47,221 nt of DNA from assembly GCF_001064145.1 (NCBI RefSeq), contig NZ_JVOJ01000046.1:1-47221 (forward strand), read 5' to 3'. Shown in pieces: positions 17,223-47,221 of this stretch (positions within the stretch are counted from its first letter, which is position 1; each line of letters begins with the position of its first letter). Under the pieces are notes generated by a model. That model did not search any database and had not been told where the DNA came from. It was given only the letters and a program-made list of their open reading frames with translations. Origin of the DNA: Sanguibacter keddieii (GTDB lineage Bacteria; Actinomycetota; Actinomycetes; Actinomycetales; Actinomycetaceae). The position numbers and the translations under genes were made by a program.

Positions 17223-17252
17223 GCCCCGGCCTCATCAATGCGAGGTCGGGGC
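17223..17252 (+). terminator. Terminator of the nagB operon (GCCCCGGCCTC stem family)
   Basis: An 11-bp stem (17223-17233 with 17242-17252, one G-T wobble) with an 8-base loop followed by CTTATTGT. The stem shares the GCCCCGGCCTC word with other terminators in the window. Confidence 0.85.
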
Positions 17253-19879: not shown

Positions 19880-20094
19880 TTAGCAACAAGTCGTACTGCG
19901 CAGACGTGCGTGAGGTCGCCATTGGTTGCGTGGTCAGCTTGGTGCTCCCGACCCGTATCAGGTCGAAACTGAATGCATAAGACCCGATCGGGTGTTACAC
20001 CCCGTCGGTAACAGGCTTCATTGTGGATCCGGCAGTCGATGGGGGCTCACGCTCGCAGCACACGGCCATGCGTCATGCGCGGATCTGCGGGCAT

Positions 20095-20153
20095 GAAAAG
20101 CCTCCCATTCCCTGGACTTCAATGTCGATGTCCAAGAAACGGGAGGCAGTTCA
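20095..20153 (-). mobile_element. Solitary 59-bp IS3-family end, now acting as pncB terminator
   Basis: Read on the minus strand, 20153-20095 matches the left end of the IS at 46982-47040 with one mismatch in 59 bases, beginning TGAACTGCCTCCCG and ending GGGAGGCTTTTC. No transposase or second end follows, so it is a remnant. Its own imperfect hairpin (GCCTCCC...GGGAGGC then TTTTC) lies 45 bases past the pncB stop and could terminate pncB. Upstream of it on the minus strand is a lone terminator arm (20159-20173). Confidence 0.85.
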
Positions 20154-20197
20154 AAGAAGGACGAGGCCGGGGCTTCGTTGTGAGTGCGAGCTGAGGG

Positions 20198-34183: not shown

Positions 34184-34222
34184 GCCCCGGCCTCGTCCAT
34201 CTGGTCCGGACGAGGCCGGGGC
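34184..34222. terminator. Bidirectional terminator (GCCCCGGCCTCGTC stem family)
   Basis: A perfect 15-bp stem (34184-34198 with 34208-34222) and 9-base loop between convergent genes, followed by ATCTTCT. The clearest complete example of the shared stem. Confidence 0.9.
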
Positions 34223-39311: not shown

Positions 39312-40787
39312 ATGAGCACTATCGATCCGTCGCAGCTCACCGCTGCCGACTTGAGCAATCCGGCGCTTTCGGCCCAGGATCTCGCGGATATTACTGCCGC
39401 TCGCCCGGACCTGCGTCCGTACGTCGCAACGCACCCGTCGCTGTACCCTGCCCTCGGGCAGTGGCTGGCGGATCAGGGCGTCGTTCCCGCGCAGCCCCCG
39501 GCTGCCGTGGAACCGGCTGTCTCTGAGTTCGAGGCTCCCGCGGAGGAGACCGGCGAGCAGGCCGAGCCTTTCGCCGGTGCCCACGAGGAAGCGCAGGCCG
39601 AGGCTGACGCCGCGCCGGCCGAGGCCCCTGTCGAGCAGCCCGCGGTCGAAGAGTCGCGCGTTGAGGCTCCCGCAGAGCCCGAGGCTCCCGTTGTTGCGGC
39701 CTCTGATGACAATCTCGAGCAGGCGATCCTTGACGGCGCGGCGCAGTCCGAGGCTCCCGCGGGTGACGAGGCTACCCCGGCCCCGTCGGCCGAGGAGCAG
39801 GTCGCGCAGTCTCCCTTCAGCAACCCGCCCCAGGCCGATGCTCAGGCGCAGGCTCAGCAGGCCCCCTTCGGCCAGCCCCAGTACGGCACTGCTCCTCAGC
39901 AGGGTCAGCCTCAGTTTGGCGGCCAGCCGCAGCAGGGCCAGCGGGCTCCCTTCGGCCAGCCTCAGCCCGGCCAGCAGCAGTACGGTCAGCCGGGTTACGC
40001 TCCGGCGGGCCCGTCGGCGGGCCAGCAGTTCGGTGCTGCCGCCCAGCAGTTCGGCGCTGCCGCGAACTCGGCGTTCAACCAGTTCCAGACGGCCGTCGTG
40101 GCTGAAACGGGCAAGGTGAGCGGTCGTTCCGTTCGCGCGACCTACTCGCTCATCGGTATCGCCGCGTCGGCGGTGCTGATCCTCGTCTCGATGCTGCTGC
40201 CTTACCTCACTAGTGACTATGGAAGCGCGTCGATGTTTACCGTGAAGGGTGGGTACTCGGCATTCCACCTCGTCCTGCTGATGGCTGTCGTCGGCTTGGG
40301 TGCCGCCTACTGGTTTACGAATCAGAAGTGGGCCTACCTGTCGGCGGGTATCGGTGCGCTTGTGGTGGCGTTGCTTGGTGTTGTTCAGTTCTTTGTCGCG
40401 TTCAGTTATGACTACATCGACGCGGGCTTTGGTGCGTTCATGCTGGGGCTGTTCTCTATCGCGATTGGCGTCGCGGGGGGCTTCCTGCTCATGGAGCTGA
40501 AGAGTGGCGCGGTCGCACCGATTAACAATCCGAATGCCTTTGGTGGTGCGTTCGCCGGTGTTCAGATGGGCCAGCAGCAGGGCCAGTTCGGCCAGCAGCA
40601 GGGTGGCTTCCAGGCTCCCCAGGCCGGTCAGCCTCAGTATGGCCAGCAGCAGGGCGGCTTCCAGGCTCCCCAGGCTCCCCAGGCCGGTCAGCCTCAGTTC
40701 GGCCAGCAGGCTCAGTTTGGCCAGCAGCAGGGCCAGCAGCCCCAGCTGGGCGACAAGCCCTACAATCCCTTCGGTCCTCAGGCGTGA
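39312..40787 (+). CDS. LRV-domain membrane protein with Gln-rich prion-like tails
   Basis: 491 residues from ATG 39312 with RBS AGAGGAA. Residues ~1-60 look like a leucine-rich-repeat-variant module (LSAQDLADITAARPDLRPYVATHPSLYPALGQWL). An acidic Ala/Glu/Pro region follows, then a Gln/Gly/Pro/Phe/Tyr-rich low-complexity stretch (units such as FGQPQYG, GQPQFGGQPQQGQ). Four membrane helices lie at about 280-410 (e.g. LIGIAASAVLILVSMLLPYL, LVLLMAVVGLGAAYWF). The C-terminus repeats GQQQGGFQAPQAGQPQ blocks, also visible as DNA tandem repeats (40571-40740). The domain combination is known from Actinomyces-like genomes; the function is unknown. Low-complexity Q/G/F/Y tails could drive self-association (inference). 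Confidence 0.8.
   Translation: MSTIDPSQLTAADLSNPALSAQDLADITAARPDLRPYVATHPSLYPALGQWLADQGVVPAQPPAAVEPAVSEFEAPAEETGEQAEPFAGAHEEAQAEADAAPAEAPVEQPAVEESRVEAPAEPEAPVVAASDDNLEQAILDGAAQSEAPAGDEATPAPSAEEQVAQSPFSNPPQADAQAQAQQAPFGQPQYGTAPQQGQPQFGGQPQQGQRAPFGQPQPGQQQYGQPGYAPAGPSAGQQFGAAAQQFGAAANSAFNQFQTAVVAETGKVSGRSVRATYSLIGIAASAVLILVSMLLPYLTSDYGSASMFTVKGGYSAFHLVLLMAVVGLGAAYWFTNQKWAYLSAGIGALVVALLGVVQFFVAFSYDYIDAGFGAFMLGLFSIAIGVAGGFLLMELKSGAVAPINNPNAFGGAFAGVQMGQQQGQFGQQQGGFQAPQAGQPQYGQQQGGFQAPQAPQAGQPQFGQQAQFGQQQGQQPQLGDKPYNPFGPQA
40571..40740. repeat. In-frame tandem repeats encoding the Gln-rich tail
   Basis: Blocks encoding GQQQGGFQAPQ(APQ)AGQPQ(Y/F) recur about every 50-60 bp with near-identical codons. 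Such repeats can change copy number by slippage and so vary tail length. Confidence 0.7.
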
Positions 40788-44666: not shown

Positions 44667-44689
44667 GGGCGCGTACTCGCAAGACTCGG

Positions 44690-44725
44690 CCCCGGCCTCG
44701 TTCATGACGACGAGGTCGGGGTTTT
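44690..44725 (+). terminator. Rho-independent terminator (GCCCCGGCCTCGT stem family)
   Basis: A 12-bp stem (44690-44701 with 44710-44721, one G-T wobble), loop TCATGACG, then TTTT. It resembles the interrupted arm at 46959-46973, which is followed by GTCATGAA. Confidence 0.92.
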
Positions 44726-46958: not shown

Positions 46959-46973
46959 GGCCCCGGCCTCGTC
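46959..46973 (+). terminator. Left arm of a terminator interrupted by the IS
   Basis: GGCCCCGGCCTCGTC, 19 bases after the stop of the 701-residue gene, is followed by GTCATGAA and then the IS end at 46982. The matching right arm is absent in the window and should lie beyond the far IS end. Confidence 0.7.
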
Positions 46974-46981
46974 GTCATGAA

Positions 46982-47221
46982 TGAACTGCCTCCCGTTTCT
47001 TGGACATCGAAATTGAAGTCCAGGGAATGGGAGGCTTTTCGTGTCTGTGGATCTGGGGTTGAGGCATGATCGTTTGCTTCGGGAGCAGGCGGTGGAGATG
47101 TTTGAGAGGGGGTGTGGCTATGGTTTGACCGCCAGGAGGCTTGGTGTGTCTGCCGAGACTGTGAGAGAGTGGCAGAAGATGTACCGAGTGATCGGGAGGG
47201 GCGGGCTTCTTGCCATGGGAG
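46982..47221 (+). mobile_element. IS3-family insertion sequence, left end (runs off the window)
   Basis: The end begins TGAACTGCCTCCCG and continues TTTCTTGGACATCG, matching the TG...CCCC...TTGGACA style of IS150/IS3-group inverted repeats. A hairpin inside the end (GCCTCCC...GGAC / GTCC...GGGAGGC, 46988-47034) has the transposase Shine-Dalgarno in its 3' arm. The first transposase frame begins at 47041. A 59-bp copy of this end is found at 20095-20153. Confidence 0.88.
47041..47221 (+). CDS. IS3-family transposase OrfA, N-terminal part
   Basis: Begins with GTG at 47041 (RBS GGGAGG six bases upstream) and stays open to the window edge. The product has a helix-turn-helix typical of OrfA: LLREQAVEMFERG, then LTARRLGVSAETVREWQKMY and GRGGLL. 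OrfA binds the IS ends; the catalytic DDE OrfB would follow outside the window, usually by frameshift fusion. Confidence 0.85.
   Translation, partial: MSVDLGLRHDRLLREQAVEMFERGCGYGLTARRLGVSAETVREWQKMYRVIGRGGLLAMG

Follow-up and report, generated by a model that had tools for sequence, protein, structure and literature searches.

The question raised by this locus is whether an insertion sequence (IS) that interrupts a host terminator does so because it selects the loops of such hairpins. The window, meaning the whole stretch of 47,221 nucleotides that was analyzed, is the entire contig C46 of a Schaalia-type genome (2.36 Mb in 61 contigs) from an oral bacterium, and it stops inside an IS. The left end of that IS, TGAACTGCC, begins at 46982 on the forward strand and, as the original prediction had it, follows by 8 bases a lone left arm, GGCCCCGGCCTCGTC (46959-46973), which is identified from its sequence as half of a split host terminator, an uninterrupted hairpin being found at the orthologous place in three relatives. 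The intervening bases (46974-46981) are the rest of the loop; their final three (46979-46981) are GAA, the target duplication, and GAA also opens the right flank on contig C49. Only the left 240 bases of the element (46982-47221, forward strand) lie in the window, among them the start of OrfA (47041-47221, forward strand; GTG start and helix-turn-helix), which is cut by the contig end and was recognized from OrfA and OrfB in the complete copy L050 and from Pfam. A solitary left-end remnant of the same IS, 85% identical to its first 100 bases, occupies 20054-20153 on the minus strand and adjoins five loop bases and the left arm GCCCCGGCCTCGTCC of another split host terminator (20154-20173, minus strand). 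The strand and the neighboring arm of this remnant had been predicted as found, while the predicted gap of 6 bases is in fact 5 and the remnant extends over the full 100 positions.

The element is a member of the IS3 family and IS150 subgroup of about 1,473 bp. Complete Schaalia copies measure 1,464 or 1,473 bp and carry IS3-type TG...CA inverted ends (TGAACTGCC...GGCGCAGTTCA). OrfA, with a helix-turn-helix (Pfam HTH_Tnp_1), and OrfB, with an rve integrase core, are in different frames joined at CCTAAAAAAATC, a frameshift site predicted from the sequence. The NCBIfam model transpos_IS3 is matched at 252.9 bits (cut-off 160), and the DD(35)E residues can be located by eye in the OrfB of L050 (TDVTEF, HSDMG, 35 residues, E), so that the family assignment first proposed agrees with domains, catalytic residues, and ends alike. 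Matches to the element were found in 12 of the 35 congeneric genomes searched, and the nearest named relatives of its protein are from Schaalia and Actinomyces. Among the best 80 of 141 relatives, OrfB is 53-100% identical and is found in Schaalia/Actinomyces, Rothia, Bifidobacterium, several Coriobacteriia genera, and others.

Arms like those at the two window junctions are abundant in this genome. With at most 2 mismatches allowed, 28 copies of the arm 14-mer were counted in the window where 1.9 would be expected, and the first 13 bases of the arm occur 255 times genome-wide against none for a reversed control. The palindromic arm GCCCCGGCCTCGTC was itself observed in 184 exact copies in the genome, far above the reversed control (sites include window positions 1769, 14953, 34184, and 43275), and the exact 14-mer of the repeat is present in 46-217 copies in 12 of the 35 genomes of the genus. 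Uninterrupted, terminator-like hairpins built from it fold at 34184-34222 (loop of 9), at about 44689-44722 (loop of 6, then TTTT), and at 17223-17252, all on the forward strand; the loops of 8-9 bases originally claimed for the first two thus hold for the former and not for the latter. A nearby arm is thus commoner than in shuffled sequence, and exact arms stand without a neighboring IS at 1769, 14953, and 43275. The two window junctions alone are weak evidence of site selection, and it is the wider sample that decides. Two other repeats were noticed in the window, namely CAG-rich direct repeats at 39848-40736 that are probably coding, and a 52-base repeat at 232-469, present four times at a spacing of 60-63 bases, which by eye could encode W-Y-Y-L motifs of cell-wall-binding repeats.

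The far end of the window's element is on contig C49, where the right end is followed by GAA, matching the GAA in which the window's left flank ends. The original prediction had named a far end lacking the right arm as evidence against it; the right arm is present on C49, and the two arms pair beyond the common repeat (CTCGG with CCGAG). The left and right flanks directly abut in genomes G020, G021, and G006, where an intact hairpin spans the join (e.g., CTCGGCCCCGGCCTCGTTCATAGTGACGAAGCCGGGGCCGAG, which folds at -40.3 kcal/mol with a z of -8.3). The right arm at the far end, together with the uninterrupted site in relatives, indicates that the site before insertion was a hairpin. In the window's genome as a whole, where 8 left-end and 7 right-end matches were found, remnants among them, five left/right end pairs could be matched by duplication in all, and 5/5 rebuild hairpins; three of the four pairs besides C46/C49 have partly or wholly different arms. 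The left end on C13 and the right ends on C43 and C32 remain unpaired. It should be noted that some mismatched left/right pairs of G000 score equal to or above matched pairs because of the common repeat arm, so that the pairing of ends depends on the duplication and, for C46/C49, also on the empty site.

A total of 100 OrfB loci (80 from relatives and 20 from the genus) were then considered; both ends could be located in 75, and the remaining 25 lacked an end and were set aside. The 75 yielded 65 distinct junctions, and after removal of 3 that lacked a flank, 62 were scored (21 from Schaalia and 41 from other genera). The score is that of the best ungapped stem in the joined flanks with a loop centre at most 4 bases from the insertion and a limit of 22 pairs. 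A score of at least 12 was reached by 46 of the 62 junctions, against 28 of 1,350 positions picked at random and 57 of 1,234 located in non-coding sequence 5-70 bases past stop codons (Fisher p < 1e-40 for each control, both drawn from loci L066-L145), where the score and its threshold were set after the sites were first seen and counts were tabulated at thresholds of 8 to 18; at a score of at least 16 the corresponding counts are 36/62, 2/1,350, and 26/1,234. Hairpins at the threshold of 12 were found at 18 of the 21 Schaalia junctions, which are not fully independent of one another, and at 28 of the 41 junctions in the remaining genera. When the search range was widened to 20 bases, 44 of 57 hairpins scoring at least 10 were centred within 2 bases of the insertion. 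When right flanks were shuffled among the 41 non-Schaalia junctions 200 times, on average 2.9 and at most 8 passed, against 28 observed.

The target duplication is 3 bp long in 42 junctions, 4 bp in 5, and 2 bp or absent in 15, and it is centred in the hairpin loop. Junctions with a duplication of at least 3 bp scored at least 12 in 39 of 47 cases, and those without in 7 of 15. The check originally proposed, that flanks should rebuild a hairpin with a 3-4 bp duplication in its loop, thus returns hairpins at 46/62 junctions and such duplications at 47/62, and most copies lie within strong hairpins rather than outside palindromes, the outcome that had been named as refuting. A total of 16 of the 62 junctions fall below the threshold of 12, nine of them under 8, and no convincing hairpin was found at the insertion in L078, L088, L089, L113, or L140. 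A CRISPR repeat was considered at L078 and dropped, as repeated units were not found around the site. Enclosure of the site in an RNA fold was likewise abandoned in favor of the stem score for being too permissive, since 50/62 sites but also 713/3,240 random positions lie in a hairpin loop with at least 7 enclosing pairs. The copies L099 and L137 each occupy the loop of an exceptionally long and almost perfect palindrome (22 pairs, as many as the score allows), which is possibly a MITE-like element. The site selection for hairpin loops that had been suggested from two junctions is borne out by these controls, by the empty site, and by the gene-end context described below, and it is very likely that the clade of the window element prefers hairpin loops as targets.

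What the element recognizes at these sites could in principle be a sequence, a base composition, or a shape. One reading is that a single interspersed repeat, the Schaalia GCCCCGGCCTCGTC palindrome, is targeted sequence-specifically, as REP is by IS1397. The arm CCCCGGCCTCG is indeed present at 12 of the 21 Schaalia junctions, and 10 of the 12 repeat-rich genomes are among the 12 genomes (of 35) that match the element. However, the arm is missing at 9/21 Schaalia junctions and at 41/41 junctions in other genera, and 34 of these 50 (6 of the 9 and 28 of the 41) still score at least 12. Sites with unrelated arms, such as L046 (GTGCCCCGCGTG/CACGCGGGGCAC), L138 in Bifidobacterium (AAAAGCCCCTC/GAGGGGCTTTT), and L121 in Collinsella (AAAAGCCCG/CGGGCTTTT), refute the single repeat as the whole explanation, and we regard it as extremely unlikely. 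Of the original prediction, the targeting of terminator loops therefore stands, while its tie to one conserved terminator does not. Base counts around the 41 non-Schaalia junctions revealed no fixed motif; they did reveal G+C-rich arms, an A-rich outer left, and a T-rich outer right, a pattern that would also arise if the element preferred G+C-rich DNA flanked by runs of A and T and the dyad were incidental. Swapping right flanks preserves that composition, yet the 28 of 41 drop to the mean of 2.9 given above, and AT-rich sites in viral contigs pair too, making such a preference very unlikely. The target is likely recognized by shape rather than sequence.

Gene context was assessed at the 48 sites with enough flank, with genes called as long ORFs. 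A total of 42 sites are intergenic and 6 lie inside long ORFs; the intergenic sites comprise 22 between convergent and 20 between co-directional genes, none being divergent, and 40 of them are within 150 bases of a gene 3' end. By comparison, 314 of 1,920 random positions are intergenic, 89 of these divergent and 158 near a 3' end. The predominance of intergenic sites and the absence of divergent ones suggest that the target hairpins are most likely intrinsic terminators, and T enrichment is seen at the sites, the T tract being no part of the hairpin score. By eye, the same terminator appears to have been hit separately in different species, at different bases in the remnant at 20153 and in L068, and in opposite orientations in L051 and L059. 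An intergenic, 3'-end distribution of this kind is also what survivorship would leave, that is, random insertion with persistence only in harmless gene-end regions. We consider this extremely unlikely, since non-coding positions past stop codons reach a score of 12 in 57/1,234 cases against 46/62, centring within 2 bases is not obviously explained by selection, and another IS3 branch in viral contigs gives 1/22. A more serious contender, although on balance still doubtful, is that the transposase takes its cue from the terminating transcription complex, or from hairpins formed in single-stranded DNA, and not from the duplex dyad. In its favor, the sites resemble terminators in more than their palindromes, with nearby gene 3' ends, an A-rich outer left, and a T-rich outer right. 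Against it, T tracts point equally often either way with respect to the element (18, 18, and 10 ties among 46 sites, with rough arm boundaries), and a duplication of 3 bp in the middle of the dyad is what an attack on both duplex strands would leave; this evidence is not decisive. Our preferred reading, which we hold to be probable, is that the transposase of this IS150-subgroup element prefers the centre of a short-loop inverted repeat, which in genomes is mostly an intrinsic terminator.

The element also carries hairpins of its own. In the window, a terminator-like hairpin (46988-47035) followed by TTTT (to 47039) reads into the element on the forward strand (-38.3 kcal/mol, z of -5.6), and its 3' arm contains GGGAGG upstream of OrfA. 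Each of the 42 distinct left ends forms such a structure (-25 to -42 kcal/mol), which begins no later than base 8 and in most cases is followed by T residues immediately before OrfA. When 21 of the 40 listed left ends were aligned, with shorter-hairpin forms left out, compensatory change on both sides was seen at 5 of the 12 pairs predicted. The final part of OrfB forms an inward-facing hairpin in 11/11 right ends looked at; this hairpin lies within coding sequence, and its conservation may have another cause. Since the ends fold into inward-facing, terminator-like hairpins, insertion may swap terminators, and it is plausible that the element replaces the host terminator by its own end hairpins. 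The junction sequences show that insertion usually duplicates 3 bp, and in some cases 4, at the midpoint of the loop. In the mechanism that we propose, the transposase would read the shape of the dyad or hairpin and not its sequence. Host transcripts entering either end of the element would then meet the element's own hairpin, one terminator would be exchanged for two at low cost to the host, and the left hairpin might sequester the ribosome-binding site of OrfA in transcripts that read through.

How far this behavior extends in the IS3 family was examined with a tree of 61 OrfB rows, rooted at the midpoint only, in which 47 rows (IS150, ISKpn1, and the clade of the window element) are split from 14 distant rows with support of 100/99. 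Besides the Serratia and E. albertii types, the distant rows include six more (with L221 among them unscored); the G114 type was too short for the tree, and labels within the IS150 branch derive from the same data. Searches with the OrfB of the window element, IS150, and ISKpn1 found 56 viral-contig loci, of which 35 were scored and 25 were distinct with clear ends. A score of at least 12 was found in 13 of these 25 (11 of 19 with a duplication), against 7 of 1,500 random positions in the same loci; setting aside three loci of the window element's own clade, two of which pass, leaves 11/22 for the other IS150/ISKpn1 relatives. For the Serratia-type branch in viral contigs (32 of 59 loci plus four query loci, the E. 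faecium/Rhizobium type, L342-L347, L297, and L299, being uncounted because of unreliable ends), 1 of 22 copies with clear ends and 1 of 10 with a duplication scored at least 12. Six more distant relatives, about 25-29% identical in OrfB where measured, gave 0 of 23 copies, and the G398 and G208 elements, which lie within the IS150 branch at 34-36% identity, gave 0 of 6. In one more distant relative (G389; L213-L216), 3 of 4 copies adjoin TGATGTGGC units identical to their own end, as if inserting beside their own end sequence. A branch-wide rule of hairpin targeting is plausible; the G398 and G208 results count against it, as do the low scores of the ISKpn1 copy, of the plasmid copies of IS150/ISKpn8, and of the experimental IS150 positions given below. 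The broader proposal, that the IS3 branch including E. coli IS150 finds terminators by dyad or hairpin geometry and that the window element's clade brings a terminator at each end and so replaces what it breaks, is offered tentatively, as a possibility somewhat short of even.

Terminators are numerous and mostly harmless addresses in bacterial genomes, and loop targeting looks like a way to spread without breaking genes. A transposase that reads their shape would, if this is true, be an uncommon example of DNA transposition guided by structure. It might account in part for the tolerance of some IS elements at several copies per genome, and it might serve to direct inserts to gene ends. Moreover, branch-wide geometry targeting would also explain the trg/mokB hot spot of IS150, left unexplained in a mutation-accumulation study. 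A search of the open literature, mostly by titles and abstract openings, did not find sequence-independent terminator-loop targeting by IS3 elements, although the original IS1397, ISKpn1, and IS150 papers may mention it.

Among known systems, IS150 lies in the same branch as the window element (OrfB 37.7% identical), and one IS150-type viral-contig copy, L245, splits a clear hairpin (score of 20). A total of 12 IS150/ISKpn8 copies were fetched, ten of them from E. coli chromosomes; the remaining two, of which one is ISKpn8, are carried on plasmids and score under 8. Nine of the 12 adjoin annotated hok genes (L232-L236, L238-L240, and L155), several being the same site in different genomes, a pattern possibly related to the trg/mokB hot spot that has been reported. 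By fold, the hok sites are imperfect hairpins, unlike the usual targets of the window element. Experimental IS150 positions are given in REL4536 coordinates (PMC5419217); only those at hokC (16,972 and 16,989) and brnQ (388,275 and 388,543) fell in REL606 at the genes to which they are assigned, six other regions that lacked their assigned genes being left out, and 0 of these 4 pass the hairpin score (3.4, 7.7, 9.3, and 5.0). Folding places the two hokC positions on opposite sides of a strong hairpin's loop, and no strong hairpin was found at the brnQ positions.

The comparison with IS1397 and ISKpn1 drawn in the original prediction is apt, as ISKpn1 (L153), also an IS3 element, falls in the same supported branch and, at 39.6% OrfB identity, is among the nearest named relatives in the matches listed. 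The single ISKpn1 copy examined scores 7.7, below the threshold of 12, and its insertion site looks by eye like a REP. An ISKpn1-like E. coli relative of the same family and branch (L226, NZ_CP144930.1) interrupts a hairpin that lies downstream of ugd and resembles a terminator (AAAAAGCCCTCAT/ATGAGGGCTTTTTTTT; score of 16.7), with no duplication found. The described target of ISKpn1 and IS1397 is one specific repeat, whereas the arms at the window element's sites differ (50/62 without the Schaalia arm). In the literature, IS1397, ISKpn1, and ISPsy8 are described as inserting into REP palindromes, and ISPsy8, IS621, ISPpu9, and other REP-targeting elements resemble the window element in choosing extragenic palindromes; ISPsy8, IS621, and ISPpu9 are, however, described there as REP-specific, and several of that group are from other families (PMC1525189). 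Group IIC (bacterial class C) introns likewise use intrinsic terminators as a safe address, but they are group II introns that insert after the terminator, whereas the window element inserts into its loop (PMC8919778, PMC3522654).
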